From the NCBI GenBank assembly GCA_938034975.1, contig CALHNI010000019.1, forward strand, positions 1 through 61,061: a stretch of 61,061 nt of DNA. Direction: 5' to 3'. The DNA is from Candidatus Goldiibacteriota bacterium (GTDB taxonomy: Bacteria; Oederibacteriota; PGYV01; DYJU01). The position numbers and the translations under genes are program-made. Below the pieces are notes generated by a model. The model was given only the letters and a program-made list of their open reading frames with translations, did not search any database and was not told the origin of the DNA. Positions 24,704 to 31,404 of the stretch are shown piece after piece (position 1 is the first letter of the stretch; every line of letters starts with the position of its first letter).

Positions 24704-25882
24704 ATGACAGACATAACTTGTATTAAACAGGGAAACACAGACCTTTTTTTTAGAGGTGGCGAGCAAATTGCAGAATGGATATATAATGAGGATGGCACAA
24801 TTTCTAAATCGGGTGAAATGATAGAAGGCGAGATTTTAACAATATTTATTGATGAAAATAAAGTAGAACAACAAACCACAATCATATTTGAAAATAATGA
24901 AATAGTAACAGGGATTGTAAGACATTATTATAAAAGTGGAGCTTTAAAACAGGAAGTTTCTTATAAAAACGGAAATGCTGATGGACCATTCAGGGTTTTT
25001 TATGAAAGCGGAAAATTAAAATCTGAAGGCATATATAAAAATGGTGTTTTACAATGGGCTACAAAAAGTTATTACGAAAACGGTAAATTAAAATCAGAGC
25101 AGGTAATTGAAGATGGGGAACAAATTTACAGGACTTACTATGAAAATGGAAATGTTGAGGTGGAAGAAACATATAAAAATAATGCACGAAATGGTCCTTA
25201 TAAAATTTATTATGAAAACGGTAAAATAAAAGTTCAGGGAACTTATGTAAATGAAAAAAAAGAAGGAACTTACAAAGTTTTTTATGAAAATGGTTTTGTA
25301 AAAGTAGAAGGTATTTATGTAAATGACAAAAGTGAGGGTTTATTTACTTTATATTATCCTAATGGTAAAGTTATGGCAGAAGAAAATTATGTTGAAGGGA
25401 AAAGAGAGGGACCTTATAAGAATTATTATGAAAATGGGAACGTGCGTATAGAAGGTTTTTTTCTAAATGGCAAAGAGCATGGTCCGCATAAAATTTATTA
25501 TGAAAACGGGGTTGTAAAACTTGAAGTTGCTTATAAAGAAGGAAAAGAAGAAGGCCCCTATAGAATTTATTACAGGACAGGCGAATTAAAAATAGAAGGA
25601 TTTTATAAAAACGGAAAAGAAGATGGACCTTATAAACTTTATTATCCGTCAGGCGTGGTTAAAGTTACAGGCTCATATAAAGATGGTAAAGAAGATGGTA
25701 TTTTTATTATGTATAATGAAGCAGGAGTTAAAAAAGTAGAAGAGAAATTTAAAGAAGGTAAGCAGGATGGAATTTACAGGAGTTTTTATGATAATGGTGT
25801 TGTGCAATGTGAAAAAGTTTTTAAAGATGGCAATGAAATATCAAGCAAAGAATATGATGAAACAGGAAAAGAAATTGGATAA
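24704..25882 (+). CDS. MORN_2 (YwqK-like) repeat protein
   Basis: The 392-residue protein contains about 13 tandem repeats of 23-24 residues from residue ~70 to the end, consensus PYKIYYENGKVKVEGxYKNGKEDG. These are MORN_2/YwqK-type repeats, forming an elongated beta-sheet. Members occur as antitoxin-like or surface/peripheral proteins; no enzymatic domain is present. The first ~70 residues are non-repetitive and lack a signal peptide, so cytoplasmic location is likely. It is a single-gene unit with its own promoter, and copy B of the hairpin element follows. Function cannot be assigned. Confidence 0.8.
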   Translation: MTDITCIKQGNTDLFFRGGEQIAEWIYNEDGTISKSGEMIEGEILTIFIDENKVEQQTTIIFENNEIVTGIVRHYYKSGALKQEVSYKNGNADGPFRVFYESGKLKSEGIYKNGVLQWATKSYYENGKLKSEQVIEDGEQIYRTYYENGNVEVEETYKNNARNGPYKIYYENGKIKVQGTYVNEKKEGTYKVFYENGFVKVEGIYVNDKSEGLFTLYYPNGKVMAEENYVEGKREGPYKNYYENGNVRIEGFFLNGKEHGPHKIYYENGVVKLEVAYKEGKEEGPYRIYYRTGELKIEGFYKNGKEDGPYKLYYPSGVVKVTGSYKDGKEDGIFIMYNEAGVKKVEEKFKEGKQDGIYRSFYDNGVVQCEKVFKDGNEISSKEYDETGKEIG

Positions 25883-26070: not shown

Positions 26071-26099
26071 TTGACAATATCATATAATGAGTGTATATT
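26071..26099 (+). promoter_or_regulatory. Sigma-70-type promoter for the cyclic-nucleotide cluster
   Basis: TTGACA (26071-26076, consensus), a 17-base spacer and TATATT (26094-26099), 35 bases before the ATG at 26134. Confidence 0.7.
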
Positions 26100-26133
26100 A
26101 TCATTATGGATATTAAATTTTAAGGAGGATACC

Positions 26134-26772
26134 ATGATAACCGAAGATGATATTATAGAAAGATATGGTAAAAAGTATTCAGCAGGGCAATATATTTTTA
26201 AAGAAGGTGAGCATGGTGAAGAAATGTTTATTATTCATAAAGGCAAAGTGAGAATAACCAAAAAAACTGATGAGGGAGAAAAGACGCTTGCTATTTTATC
26301 AGATGGAGATTTTTTTGGCGAAATGGCAGTTATAGATAAGGGACCACGTTCAGCATCAGCAATTGCAGAAGATGAAACAATTTGTATTGTTTTAGATGAA
26401 GAACTTTTTGAACAACAGATGCAAAGAAATGCAAAAATTGTAAAGAAAATTTTAAAAAATATGAGTGCGAGATTAAGAGCAACTAATGAGCAGTTACAAC
26501 TTCTTACTGCCAAAGATTACAATATGAGGGTTGTAAATGCACTTTTACTGCATGTTAATAAAAGTGGAGATAATTCTAAGATATCTATTCAGGACTTACT
26601 TAAACAAACAGGTATGGAAGATAATAAGTCAAAGTTTGATGAAATTATACAGAATATGCAAAGGGCAAAAGTAGTAAGTTTAAATGGTGACACAATAACT
26701 GTGAGCAGTGCGGATAATATCGCAAAATACAAGCAATACCTTGAAATGAAAAAAGAATTTGGTGAAGTTTAG
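26134..26772 (+). CDS. Cyclic-nucleotide-binding (Crp/Fnr-like) protein
   Basis: The start at 26134 is chosen for AAGGAGG at 26122-26128; a longer frame would begin inside the promoter. Of 212 residues, about 15-120 form a cNMP-binding domain (AGQYIFKEGEHGEEMFIIHKG is split across it). Its phosphate-binding cassette GEMAVIDKGPRSASA keeps the ligand-contacting Glu (E63) and Arg (R72), so it should bind cAMP or a relative. The C-terminal ~90 residues (NALLLHVNKSG, DLLKQTGMEDNKSKFDEII, KKEFG) may be an atypical winged helix rather than the standard Crp HTH. It leads an operon with a CHASE2/cyclase-like protein and a cNMP phosphodiesterase, pointing to a local cNMP circuit. Confidence 0.85.
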   Translation: MITEDDIIERYGKKYSAGQYIFKEGEHGEEMFIIHKGKVRITKKTDEGEKTLAILSDGDFFGEMAVIDKGPRSASAIAEDETICIVLDEELFEQQMQRNAKIVKKILKNMSARLRATNEQLQLLTAKDYNMRVVNALLLHVNKSGDNSKISIQDLLKQTGMEDNKSKFDEIIQNMQRAKVVSLNGDTITVSSADNIAKYKQYLEMKKEFGEV

Positions 26773-28462
26773 TAAAAAAGTGAAAAAAAATACGATTGTT
26801 ATTTTTTTTCTTATTTTATCTTTTTTTATATATTTATCCTTTTTGTTCAAAATAAATCCAAAAATTTATTTTTTTTTAAATAAATTTTTCCCTTCTGAAT
26901 TCAGCAGTGAAAAAATATTAATGATTGAAAGTGAATTTGAATTAAAAACATTCAATAACCTTTTAGATAAACTTAAAACAGCAGAAAATTCAGTTATATT
27001 ACTTTTGCCGCAAATTTTTAATATAAAGGTCGGGGATTATCTTGAAAATATTAACATAGAAGAAATAAAAAAAAATAAAGATTATTATAATGCTTTTATT
27101 TATAAAATAGCAGAAATGCCTAATTTAATACCAGTTATTTTTTTATATAATGAAAAAGATAAAAAAAGCACAGTTGATTTAAGCAAGTATTTTTATTTTG
27201 AAAAATCAGATCAAAAATTCAACTTAACAAAATACAATTATATAAAAATAATAAGTAAAAAATTATGGTATTCAATAAGTGATGTTGCATTTTATGAAGA
27301 GTTTGATGAATATCCTTTTGAAATTTCTTTACTTTATGATTATAATAATAAAATACTTCTCAATGCTGCGTTAGAATCTATTCGTCGATATTATAAGATT
27401 CCCAAAACACAGGTAAAATATGAAAATAAAAATTTAATTATTGGTAATATAGTTAGTTTACCGATGGATAAAGATGGTAAAATGTTTTTAAAAGAATATA
27501 AAAAATATAAAAAAATATATACTGCTGAAGAAATTTTAAATATAGAAAAAAATGAATTAAATGACAAAATTATAATTATAAAAAGTAGTAACAATACTAT
27601 TCAAACAATGCAGAGTTTGGCCGTGGCAATAGATTCATTGCTAAACAAAAAATTCATTAAATATAATAAAAAAATAGAATATATATTGGCTGTGGTTTTG
27701 GCGATTATTTTATTTTTTACATTCGGAGAAATTAAATTTTTATTTGGCTTAATATTGAATCTGTTTTTTATATTTGTAGAACTTATCATTGCAGCGTATT
27801 TGACAAAATATAATATTTATTTTGATTATATGTTATTTATAAGTGTTTTATTTTCTTTGTTTTTTTCTGTTTATTTAATTAAAATTTTAAGCAATTGGCA
27901 TATATATAAATCAAGGAAGAATCTTATGATTAAATATGCTCCACCAGAAAAAATCAAACAAATTATTAATCAAAATATTGATATTAAAATAAAAAATGCA
28001 TGGTTGAAAACCAGATGTTTTTATATTGTTTTTAACAGTAATTATTTTAGTAATCCGGAAAAACTAAAAATAACTTTTGAAAAAATCAAAGCAATAATAT
28101 ATAATAATATATACAATTGTTTAATCAAAATCAATAGTTTTAATGAATTTTTAGTGGTCTTTTTAGAAGAAATGGATTTAAAAAAAGAAATAGATTTGCT
28201 TTTTGAAATTAGAAAAAGTATAGAGGAAACAAATTATAATATCATTATCAATAATACCGAAATTTATTTTTTGGAATACAATAATAATTTCTTTTTCATT
28301 GATAAAAGGTATGATATAAAAATACAGGCAGATAAAATAGAAAAAAGAGGTTATATTCTGATACATGGGGATGATATACAAAAATATATAAATTTAATTA
28401 AATTCCAAAAGGTGCAAACATACGATAAAGATACTTTTTTTAATGCGATATCAGACAGGTAA
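26759..28462 (+). CDS. CHASE2-domain membrane protein with a degenerate class III cyclase-like C-terminus
   Basis: The 567-residue protein has a membrane helix at about 12-30. An extracytoplasmic region (about 35-300) has CHASE2 features: ALESIRRYYKIP, NLIIGNIVSLPMDKDGKMF, then a tail-end KIIIIKSS. Three closely spaced helices (about 307-376) and a C-terminal domain (about 390-560) follow. The order matches CHASE2-adenylate cyclases: YAPPEKIKQII corresponds to the pre-cyclase helix, KINSFNEFLVVF to KxxGDxxxAxF, and KRYDIKIQADKIEK to the dYTviGxxVNxAaRLe block. Metal-binding Asp positions are replaced (FNSNYF, SFNEF), so catalysis is unlikely. The start is uncertain: TTG 26759, GTG 26762 or GTG 26780. 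It overlaps the preceding gene by 14 bases. Confidence 0.65.
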   Translation: MVKFSKKVKKNTIVIFFLILSFFIYLSFLFKINPKIYFFLNKFFPSEFSSEKILMIESEFELKTFNNLLDKLKTAENSVILLLPQIFNIKVGDYLENINIEEIKKNKDYYNAFIYKIAEMPNLIPVIFLYNEKDKKSTVDLSKYFYFEKSDQKFNLTKYNYIKIISKKLWYSISDVAFYEEFDEYPFEISLLYDYNNKILLNAALESIRRYYKIPKTQVKYENKNLIIGNIVSLPMDKDGKMFLKEYKKYKKIYTAEEILNIEKNELNDKIIIIKSSNNTIQTMQSLAVAIDSLLNKKFIKYNKKIEYILAVVLAIILFFTFGEIKFLFGLILNLFFIFVELIIAAYLTKYNIYFDYMLFISVLFSLFFSVYLIKILSNWHIYKSRKNLMIKYAPPEKIKQIINQNIDIKIKNAWLKTRCFYIVFNSNYFSNPEKLKITFEKIKAIIYNNIYNCLIKINSFNEFLVVFLEEMDLKKEIDLLFEIRKSIEETNYNIIINNTEIYFLEYNNNFFFIDKRYDIKIQADKIEKRGYILIHGDDIQKYINLIKFQKVQTYDKDTFFNAISDR

Positions 28463-28476
28463 AGGAGGAAAATAAT

Positions 28477-29250
28477 ATGAAAATAAAAGTTTTGGGATGT
28501 TATGGAGGGGAGTTGCCCGGATTTAATGTCAGTGGTTATCTACTTGATGGTAAATTTTTAATTGATGCCGGGACAATTGGAACAAAAATTAATATTACGG
28601 AACAGAGAAAAATAAAAAATATTTTAATTTCCCATCCACACCTTGATCATATTGGGAGTTTGCCATTTTTTGGTGTTAATATTGTAAGTAATAAATCAGA
28701 AGCAGTTAAAATTATTGGAACGCATTTTACTATTGATACAATAAGTAAAAATTTAATGAATGGTCATATCTGGCCTGATTTTACAAAAATAAAAAATGCA
28801 GCAGGGAATAATGTTTTTGAATATTTTAAGATTGAACATAATAAATGGTATGATATAGATGGTTATAAAATCATGGCAGTAAAAGTAAATCATTCAATCC
28901 CGGCAGATGGTTTTATTATAGGGAAAAATAATAATTATTTTGTTTATACGGGTGATACAAAAGAAACAATGGAAATATGGGAAAAAGCAAAGGAACTTGG
29001 AAAAAAATTAAAAACAGTGATAATAGAAGTTGCTTTCCCTGATGAATTAAGACAACTTGCAGAAAATAGTTATCATCTGGTGCCGGCAACATTGGTAAGC
29101 GAGATTGGTAAACTCGGCGATTTAAAGCCAAAAATATTTGTAATACATATGAAACCTGAATATTTAACAATTATAAAAAAGCAGTTAAAGAAAATAAAAA
29201 AATATAAAATATATCTGATGCAGGAAGGAAAAATTTTTAAAATAACTTAA
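28477..29250 (+). CDS. Metallo-beta-lactamase-fold hydrolase, class II 3',5'-cyclic-nucleotide phosphodiesterase-like
   Basis: The 257-residue protein has GYLLDGKFLIDAGT, then ISHPHLDHIGSLP (H53, H55, D57, H58 as metal ligands). Later ligands lie in VNHSIPADGF and VYTGDTKET. The HxHLDHxxSLP form and the overall length match class II cNMP phosphodiesterases (PDE1/CpdP type) better than lactamases or glyoxalases. It should hydrolyse cAMP or a related cyclic nucleotide in the cytoplasm. AAAGGAGG precedes the ATG. Position behind a cNMP-binding protein and a cyclase-like protein supports this reading. Alternative: another MBL phosphodiesterase such as an RNase Z relative. Confidence 0.75.
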   Translation: MKIKVLGCYGGELPGFNVSGYLLDGKFLIDAGTIGTKINITEQRKIKNILISHPHLDHIGSLPFFGVNIVSNKSEAVKIIGTHFTIDTISKNLMNGHIWPDFTKIKNAAGNNVFEYFKIEHNKWYDIDGYKIMAVKVNHSIPADGFIIGKNNNYFVYTGDTKETMEIWEKAKELGKKLKTVIIEVAFPDELRQLAENSYHLVPATLVSEIGKLGDLKPKIFVIHMKPEYLTIIKKQLKKIKKYKIYLMQEGKIFKIT

Positions 29251-29709
29251 ATGTTTTATTTAAGAAACGTAAAGATAGATGATATAAAAGAAATCATTGA
29301 GATAGAAAAAGAGTCATTTAAAAATCCATGGAGTGAAAAAGCATTTTCATGTGAAGTTTCAAAAAATAAAAGCGGCCAAAATATATTTCTTGTTGCTGTT
29401 TTAAAAGAAACAAACAAAATTATTGGTTATATTATTGGTGATAAGATCGTTGATTTTGCAGCGATATTAAATATTGCAGTGGATAAAAATTTTAGAAAAA
29501 AAGGTGTTGGTTTTGCACTTTTAAAGCAATTTGAAAAAGAAGTTTTAAAATCAGATTTAAGTTCAATGACTCTTGAAGTAAGGGAAAGCAATATTAACGC
29601 TATTAATTTATATAAAAAAGCAGGTTTTGTAATTAAAGGTAAAAGAGAAAAATATTACGAAAATAAGGAAGATGCACTTTTAATGTGGAAAATCGTAAAA
29701 ACGCTTTAG
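29251..29709 (+). CDS. rimI: Ribosomal-protein-alanine N-acetyltransferase RimI-like (GNAT)
   Basis: The 152-residue GNAT protein has RNVKIDDIKEIIEIEKESFKNPWSEKAF at its start region, the acetyl-CoA loop NFRKKGVGFALL (RxxGxG/A) and EVRESNINAINLYKKAGF, all typical of RimI, which acetylates the N-terminus of ribosomal protein S18. The ATG abuts the previous stop, so it belongs to the cyclic-nucleotide operon. Its stop codon (29707-29709) lies within a hairpin of repeat copy C. A link between acetylation and cNMP signalling is known in mycobacteria for a fused protein, but here it is only suggested by position. Confidence 0.85.
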   Translation: MFYLRNVKIDDIKEIIEIEKESFKNPWSEKAFSCEVSKNKSGQNIFLVAVLKETNKIIGYIIGDKIVDFAAILNIAVDKNFRKKGVGFALLKQFEKEVLKSDLSSMTLEVRESNINAINLYKKAGFVIKGKREKYYENKEDALLMWKIVKTL

Positions 29710-29942: not shown

Positions 29943-30515
29943 ATGGTAATGGAAAAAGGCGATAAAGAAATTATACAGGATATTAAAAATGGTAATGAAC
30001 ATGCAATTGATGAACTTATAAAAAAATACCAAAAAAAGGTATATAATTTGATATTTGGTATGACTTTTAATTATGATATTGCATGGGATGTGTCGCAGGA
30101 AGTATTCATTAAGGTTATTAAAAATATTAAAAATTTCAGAGGTGAAAGTTCTTTCTGGACATTTCTTTACAGAATAACAATGAATGCTTATTATGATTAC
30201 TACAGGAAATATAAATTAAGAGAAAAAGTATCATATTTTTCGGAAATGGATGATGAAGATACAAAAAGAACTTTTGAAGTAAAAGACCTTATTAATTTGG
30301 AAGAAGAATTTGAAGTTAAAGAATTCAAAGAAACAGTTAAAATTGCTTTAAAGGAATTAACTGATATGCAAAGGCAGGTGTTTATTTTAAAGAATATTAA
30401 TAATTTAAAAATAAAAGAAATAGCGGATTTACTTAAAATTTCCGAGGGAACAGTAAAATCACATTTAAATAGAGCAATGGAAAAATTGAAAGAAACATTA
30501 GGAGCTAAAACATGA
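29943..30515 (+). CDS. ECF-type RNA polymerase sigma factor (RpoE-like)
   Basis: The 190-residue protein has sigma region 2 at about 15-85 (ELIKKYQKKVYNLIFG, WDVSQEVFIKVIKNI, SSFWTFLYRITMNAYYDYYRK split across it) and region 4 at about 130-185 (LTDMQRQVFILKN, LKIKEIADLLKISEGTVKSHL). There is no region 1 or 3, as expected for ECF factors. AAGGA precedes the ATG. The next gene, a zinc-finger anti-sigma candidate, overlaps its stop by four bases (ATGA), a classic sigma/anti-sigma arrangement. An ECF-like promoter motif lies upstream of it and again at 42572. Confidence 0.92.
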   Translation: MVMEKGDKEIIQDIKNGNEHAIDELIKKYQKKVYNLIFGMTFNYDIAWDVSQEVFIKVIKNIKNFRGESSFWTFLYRITMNAYYDYYRKYKLREKVSYFSEMDDEDTKRTFEVKDLINLEEEFEVKEFKETVKIALKELTDMQRQVFILKNINNLKIKEIADLLKISEGTVKSHLNRAMEKLKETLGAKT

Positions 30516-30985
30516 GTATTGATTGTAAATTTATAGAAGAAAAATTGATAGAGTATGTTTATGATGAGATTACAGATAATTATACCATTGAAGAGATTAA
30601 ACAACATTTAAAGATATGTTTCAAATGCCGCGAAAAATATGAAGCATATATAAAAATAAAAGAAAATATAAAAAAAATAGATATTAATTTCCCAGAAGAG
30701 GTTTGGGATTTACACAGACAGGAGATAAAAAAGAAACTTTACGAGAGAAAAACTGCGATAGCAGTTATAAAGGAAACAATTTTTAATTTGTTTAATATTA
30801 AAAAAATTGTATTTGCATTTTTGATTATTTTATTTGCTTTTGTCGGAATTCAATTTGTAAAAACAAATCAGGAAAATGAAAAATATAAAAAAATTATAGA
30901 AAATATAGATATACTGGAAAACATTTCAGTTATAGAACAACTGGATTTTTATACAAAAATAAAAGAAGGTGATTTTAATTTATGA
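30512..30985 (+). CDS. Zinc-finger (ZAS-type) anti-sigma factor, membrane-anchored
   Basis: The 157-residue protein has an N-terminal anti-sigma zinc finger motif HLKICFKCREKYEAY (HxxxCxxC, about residues 31-38). One membrane helix follows at about 105-122 (IVFAFLIILFAFVGIQFV), with a short extracytoplasmic tail. Such proteins hold the cognate ECF sigma factor at the membrane until a signal removes them. The ATGA overlap with the sigma gene indicates translational coupling. It overlaps the next gene by four bases as well. Confidence 0.85.
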   Translation: MSIDCKFIEEKLIEYVYDEITDNYTIEEIKQHLKICFKCREKYEAYIKIKENIKKIDINFPEEVWDLHRQEIKKKLYERKTAIAVIKETIFNLFNIKKIVFAFLIILFAFVGIQFVKTNQENEKYKKIIENIDILENISVIEQLDFYTKIKEGDFNL

Positions 30986-31404
30986 AAAAAATTTTTTTAT
31001 TTTTAATTTTTTTTAATGTCATCTTGGTAATGTGTTTATTTTCAAAGGATTCAGTAATAAATACTTCAGAAGAAATATTATTATCATTTGAAGAAAAAGA
31101 AAAAATAAAAGAATTATTTCCGGAATGGGATAAATATTCCCGTGAAGAAAAAGAAAAAATCATAAGGAATCATAAAAAATTTAAAAACATGTCTGACAAA
31201 GAAAAAGAAAAATTAATAGCAGCATATAAAGAATGGGAAAAATTATCACCACAGATGAAAGAAAAAATAAGAAAAAATTATGAAAAATGGAAAAAATTAA
31301 GTTCTGAAGAAAAAGAAAAAATAAAAGAAAATTATAAAAAATATAAAAATTTACATCCAACTAAAAAGTCAAAAGTAAGAGAAAAAATAAAAAAAAGAAA
31401 ATAA
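30982..31404 (+). CDS. Exported DUF3106-like repeat protein
   Basis: The 140-residue product has a signal peptide (MKKIFLFLIFFNVILVMCLFS). About five repeats of ~17-19 residues follow, of the form KxWxKLSxEEKEKIxxNY, as in the DUF3106 family. It is highly charged (Lys/Glu), probably all-helical and periplasmic. Its place as third gene of the sigma/anti-sigma operon suggests that it helps sense envelope stress, like other small helical periplasmic partners of ECF systems; this is inference. It overlaps the anti-sigma gene by four bases. Confidence 0.75.
   Translation: MKKIFLFLIFFNVILVMCLFSKDSVINTSEEILLSFEEKEKIKELFPEWDKYSREEKEKIIRNHKKFKNMSDKEKEKLIAAYKEWEKLSPQMKEKIRKNYEKWKKLSSEEKEKIKENYKKYKNLHPTKKSKVREKIKKRK

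Follow-up and report, generated by a model that had tools for sequence, protein, structure and literature searches.

The usual second-messenger scheme consists of a writer, a reader and an eraser, and the genes described here form a compact cyclic nucleotide (cNMP) operon in which a predicted reader and a probable eraser flank a membrane protein whose cyclase domain has lost its catalytic motifs. The operon lies in the 61,061-nt contig CALHNI010000019.1 (contig 19 of assembly GCA_938034975.1, Candidatus Goldiibacteriota bacterium, 1.93 Mb, 84% complete), which is called the window below. Four open reading frames (ORFs), all on the + strand, encode a Crp-type receptor (P1), a CHASE2-like membrane protein (P2), a class II phosphodiesterase (PDE)-like protein (P3) and a RimI acetyltransferase (P4). 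The features of the locus are as follows:

26071..26099, + strand: promoter-like site TTGACA-N17-TATATT (11/12 consensus matches)
26134..26772, + strand: P1, Crp-type cNMP receptor, 212 aa (PF00027, 1e-26; PDB Crp/GlxR profiles; Foldseek)
26317..26355, + strand: P1 phosphate-binding cassette GEMAVIDKGPRSA with E63 and R72 (conservation, 19 homologues)
26759..28462, + strand: P2, membrane protein with CHASE2-like sensor and class III cyclase-fold domain (hhalign, AlphaFold, Foldseek, motif scan)
26840..27658, + strand: P2 extracytoplasmic CHASE2-like region, approximately residues 28-300, after an N-terminal membrane helix (PF05226, hhalign)
27668..27892, + strand: P2 three predicted membrane helices, approximately residues 304-378 (AlphaFold model)
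27944..28459, + strand: P2 cyclase-homology domain, residues 396-567, catalytically degenerate (model, Foldseek, motif scan)
28477..29250, + strand: P3, class II cNMP phosphodiesterase-like protein of metallo-beta-lactamase fold, 257 aa (PF02112, 1.7e-17; PDE1 profile match)
28633..28650, + strand: P3 metal-binding motif HPHLDH, residues 53-58 (conservation, 14 homologues)
29251..29709, + strand: P4, RimI ribosomal S18 alanine N-acetyltransferase (TIGR01575 equivalog, 125.3 bits against a cut-off of 86.4)

The successive ORFs are spaced by -14, +14 and 0 nt, and the tight packing noted in the initial annotation is real. The gene-neighbourhood survey that the annotation had called for found P1, P2, P3 and RimI contiguous in 11 of the 14 genomes of the window's Goldiibacteriota order (the relatives being nearly all metagenome-assembled), a conservation beyond chance. 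The whole block was not found in genomes G001 and G006; RimI and a close relative of the neighbouring sigma factor are also missing there, possibly through an assembly gap, and for this reason the absence is not used as evidence of co-loss. The annotation had placed the genes behind one consensus-like promoter. The site itself is present and ranks among the best three of 35 promoter-type matches in the region; its function is unproven, because the total of 35 is no higher than the 33.6 expected from shuffled sequences. An ORF opening at 26071 falls within the site, and the P1 start is likely the ATG at 26134, which is preceded by AAGGAGG.

P1 had been described as a cNMP-binding protein with the ligand Glu and Arg kept, and this description held: PF00027 is matched, and G62, E63, M64, R72, S73 and A74 of the cassette are invariant across the 19 homologues, so that cNMP binding is predicted. 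The protein is 69-76% identical within the order and mostly 44-55% identical across the phylum. Its profile matches the Crp/GlxR structures 4cyd and 4byy over nearly the full length (2.6e-34), and the predicted model is Crp-like as well, with 3h3u as the best Foldseek match (2.8e-16). P1 thus shares with Crp/GlxR-type receptors the fold, the phosphate-binding cassette, the dimerisation helix and a winged-helix-like C-terminal domain (predicted fold), but differs from them in the recognition helix and in a conserved LEMKxxFGE tail that follows the wing. The residues that we take to contact DNA in E. coli CRP are not kept in the winged-helix-like end, and the tail presumably has no counterpart in CRP. 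The Pfam domain HTH_Crp_2 was found in 10 of the 19 P1 relatives and not in the window P1. The picture is of a Crp-fold receptor with an apparently modified output domain. Other P1-like arrangements were seen further afield: two P1-like receptor genes lie side by side in a Deltaproteobacteria-labelled locus (L172, 4956-6541), and six spirochaete loci (L185, L186, L188, L189, L191 and L194) encode proteins of about 390-470 aa with high P1-profile scores, perhaps two-domain receptors.

The initial annotation had also assigned P3 to the class II-type phosphodiesterases on its HxHLDH motif. PF02112 scores 64 bits (cut-off 23.7) and is matched by all 14 homologues, in which seven metal-ligand residues (H53, H55, D57, H58, H139, D160 and H224) are invariant. 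The best PDB profile match is yeast PDE1 (4ojv, 1.8e-13), which has in common with P3 the PF02112 domain, HxHLDH, the full metal-ligand set and the motif IWPD[FL]T; P3 differs from it in length (257 aa versus a PDE1 chain of 369 aa), in its bacterial operon setting and in that its hydrolytic activity is a prediction. RNase Z was considered as an identity and rejected in favor of PDE1: NCBIfam ranks ribonuclease Z models first, but these are matched far under their cut-offs (58.8 of 293 bits). P3 might still be an RNase Z- or Apyc1-type enzyme of the metallo-beta-lactamase fold rather than a 3',5'-cNMP phosphodiesterase, in which case the name eraser would be wrong. The precedent for such an error is Sinorhizobium SpdA, an eraser predicted at a comparable locus that acts on 2',3'-cAMP (PMC4222275), and it cautions against deducing the P3 substrate from gene context. 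With PF02112 above its cut-off, PDE1 as the nearest solved relative and P3 linked to a cNMP receptor gene in two phyla, we consider that alternative quite unlikely and P3 probably a cyclic-nucleotide-destroying enzyme. Three outcomes had been named beforehand as contrary to the annotation, and two of them did not occur, since P3 matches class II PDEs and the neighbourhood is conserved in relatives.

P2 had been called a CHASE2 membrane protein with a cyclase-like C-terminus. The CHASE2 part is borne out by profile comparison: PF05226 is found in residues 171-284 below its curated cut-off (20.2 versus 26.3 bits, 5e-4) and at E < 0.05 in just one of 12 P2 family members, and the N-terminal sensor half alone aligns to CHASE2 cyclases by hhalign (95%, E 3e-8), by which we judge that half homologous to bona fide CHASE2 proteins despite the sub-cut-off Pfam score. 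Most of the P2 length is aligned when its profile is compared with those of CHASE2-class III cyclases (98.2%, E 3.7e-14), and a profile built from 12 P2 relatives picks out the CHASE2 cyclase of the same genome (5.9e-10). A Pfam scan of P2 gave no cyclase domain match. In the AlphaFold model (mean predicted local distance difference test score 80, no templates) the membrane helices span residues 304-324, 327-350 and 357-390, and the secondary-structure order of the C-terminal domain is that of a class III domain. The 50 Foldseek matches listed from the PDB are class III adenylyl/guanylyl cyclases or proteins containing that domain, with a best E of 1.7e-7 and target-normalised template modelling scores mostly of 0.5-0.69, corresponding to single catalytic domains. 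A GGDEF-type domain was considered for the C-terminus and rejected, as none is among those matches.

The catalytic part of the cyclase is another matter. The metal loop FxDIxG, the metal-binding KxxGD and the transition-state motif GDxxNxxxR are present in 12/12 CHASE2 cyclases compared, and a motif scan found none of them in 11 full-length P2 proteins (the window P2 and 10 relatives). The class III fold is thus present, whereas the two metal-binding Asp and the transition-state Asn/Arg are not. P2 is laid out in the membrane like the CHASE2-class III cyclases (PF05226 + PF00211) and shares with them the homology to CHASE2 and the cyclase fold; it differs from them in its missing catalytic motifs and in scores under the Pfam cut-offs. 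It follows that the module itself lacks a writer. Enzymatic activity kept or regained through non-canonical residues would make the module a complete writer-reader-eraser set; an Asp/Glu does recur near the position of the second metal-Asp in several P2 relatives (alignment A1) and Nitrospirota have an intact cyclase at the P2 position, but with all three motifs gone and no conserved substitute set in the P2 family we hold this to be very unlikely. Across the order, P2 proteins share 25-39% identity with the window's P2, a fast divergence that could be taken as the mark of a decaying cyclase pseudogene among chance neighbours. Against this, the P2 reading frame is open in all members, the gene adjoins those of P1 and P3 in 11 genomes, and the ratio of nonsynonymous to synonymous substitution rates (dN/dS) in close pairs is 0.036-0.154. 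The low ratio indicates purifying selection, and therefore P2 is a maintained pseudoenzyme; a pseudogene is extremely improbable.

In one Nitrospirota class, P3 is carried by 13 of 14 genomes and lies next to a CHASE2 cyclase gene in 13/13. In all nine contigs long enough (loci L154, L157, L159, L240, L242-L244, L246 and L247) the order is P1, cyclase, P3, with the same receptor and PDE families as in the window. The Nitrospirota cyclases always carry all three catalytic motifs (FSDIRGF, KFVGDA and GDNVNLGAR), and PF05226 and PF00211 are well over cut-off in three of the loci. The gene order and the flanking families are alike, but the Nitrospirota cyclase is intact and RimI takes no part there. 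Because the same order holds an intact cyclase in Nitrospirota and P2 has lost the motifs, the window operon is regarded as the writer-less form. The initial annotation knew of no described system with this set, a statement that does not stand, as Nitrospirota have the set with an intact cyclase and an analogous locus has been published in Sinorhizobium. Searches of the open-access subset of the literature turned up neither a report on the Nitrospirota module nor one on any CHASE2 pseudocyclase.

Elsewhere in its own phylum the module takes other forms. P2 is confined to the window's order; 31 genomes from the rest of the phylum yielded none. In four loci of other Goldiibacteriota families (L056, L057, L061 and L069) P1 and P3 form a pair downstream of a gene for an S1 protein, and P2 is missing. 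In families f12 and f15 (L064, L066, L067, L070 and L073) a single P1 is present with no P3, flanked by uvrA/PorV-like genes on one side and polyprenyl synthetase/NADH dehydrogenase genes on the other. A cyclase upstream of P1 was looked for in these other families, and rpsA-like S1 or uvrA/PorV genes were found instead.

Three intact class III cyclases are encoded at other loci of the window's own genome, and therefore the nucleotide can be supplied in trans. An intact CHASE2 cyclase is found in nine genomes of the order, the window's own included, where it lies on contig C20. By P2 profile score it is the closest cyclase to P2 (36.4 bits versus 18-24 for the Nitrospirota cyclases). Class III cyclases function as dimers, and P2 could accordingly be a regulatory subunit that joins or poisons the dimer of such a CHASE2 cyclase encoded elsewhere, an outside cue altering cNMP synthesis while P1 reads and P3 erases. 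The closeness in score and the co-occurrence would fit this. However, the two proteins are just distantly alike, the cyclase gene is on another contig, gene order links P2 to P1 and P3 instead, and P2 has lost those residues of the catalytic site that lie at the dimer interface; we regard a regulatory subunit as rather unlikely. A second receptor-cyclase pair was observed in the order: a class III cyclase that is intact, membrane-anchored and about 350 aa long (G000 contig C6, about 83771-86007, L212; also L215) is encoded less than 2 kb from another gene for a Crp-like cNMP-binding protein, the two being separated by a HAD-like gene, and cyclase and receptor matches are equally near each other in nine other order genomes.

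The roles that the initial annotation proposed for P1 (receiver), P2 (membrane sensor) and P3 (eraser, here taken as probable) are supported, and the neighbourhood is conserved. From sequence and models we propose, with confidence and doubt about evenly balanced, that the operon is a cNMP signalling module without its own writer in which P2 acts by contact with P1 and/or P3. In such a mechanism cAMP or cGMP would come from the genome's three intact class III cyclases acting in trans, the CHASE2 domain of P2 would pick up an extracytoplasmic cue, and the cue would be carried across the membrane to the P2 pseudocyclase dimer. The pseudocyclase would then work through protein contact and not catalysis, as a membrane scaffold or an allosteric switch on P1 and/or P3, and the contact may decide where the cell reads or erases the nucleotide signal, and when.

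The closest described system is the Sinorhizobium meliloti cyaD1-clr-spdA locus (CyaD1/CyaD2/CyaK), which likewise combines a CHASE2 class III cyclase, the Crp-type receptor Clr and a phosphodiesterase, SpdA (PMC4222275, PMC13001267). It differs in that the cyclase CyaD1 is active and Clr activates by binding DNA. SpdA, moreover, belongs to the class III metallophosphoesterases and was found to hydrolyse 2',3'-cNMP (PMC4222275), whereas P3 is class II PDE-like. A precedent for contact between such proteins is Sinorhizobium CyaC, a class III cyclase that directly binds Clr; CyaC active-site mutants are still positive with Clr in the two-hybrid test (PMC10463352).

Several points weigh against a contact-acting pseudocyclase. 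In vitro, CyaC and Clr co-sedimented only when ATP was present, and an active-site mutant no longer did so (PMC10463352). The C-terminal half of P2 alone is weak against cyclases by hhalign (6%, E 0.006); the cyclase assignment of that half draws on P2 aligned over its full length and on a structure model built with 12 sequences, and a PDB sequence search with P2 returned no solved structure at E up to 1. In genome G005 (89% complete) the P2 gene sits at the end of a contig, its upstream neighbour is a TPR gene instead of P1, and a search of the genome found neither P1 nor P3.

RimI had been proposed as a possible effector of the module. The RimI identity is well founded on the equivalog score and the gene directly follows P3 in all 11 order genomes holding the block, but the protein matches the equivalog for S18 acetylation, and neither the Nitrospirota module nor the P1-P3 loci in other families of Goldiibacteriota include it; the effector role is not supported as the leading idea and RimI is, because of this absence, most likely a housekeeping neighbour. 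Downstream of it (29943-31404) are an ECF (extracytoplasmic function) sigma factor, a membrane protein that is probably a zinc-finger anti-sigma factor, and a charged protein rich in repeats, whose place behind RimI is kept across the order, the sigma factor and two small genes being present in most of the 11 block-bearing genomes. Directly upstream of the operon (24704-25882) is a 392-aa protein made up mostly of MORN_2 repeats (12 stretches).

The locus defines a compact three-gene cNMP module in little-studied phyla, one operon whose cyclase is live in one phylum and dead but maintained in the other, and it may illustrate how a second-messenger module can shed its writer yet retain the sensor. 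We suggest, more tentatively than the mode of action itself, that P2 may found a family of bacterial pseudocyclases, CHASE2 receptors in which the cyclase domain would have become a signal-controlled docking or switch domain for the co-encoded receptor and PDE, related to the intact writer-reader-eraser operon of Nitrospirota. A comparison of the two middle genes makes it directly testable whether a CHASE2-cyclase receptor can signal without producing a nucleotide.

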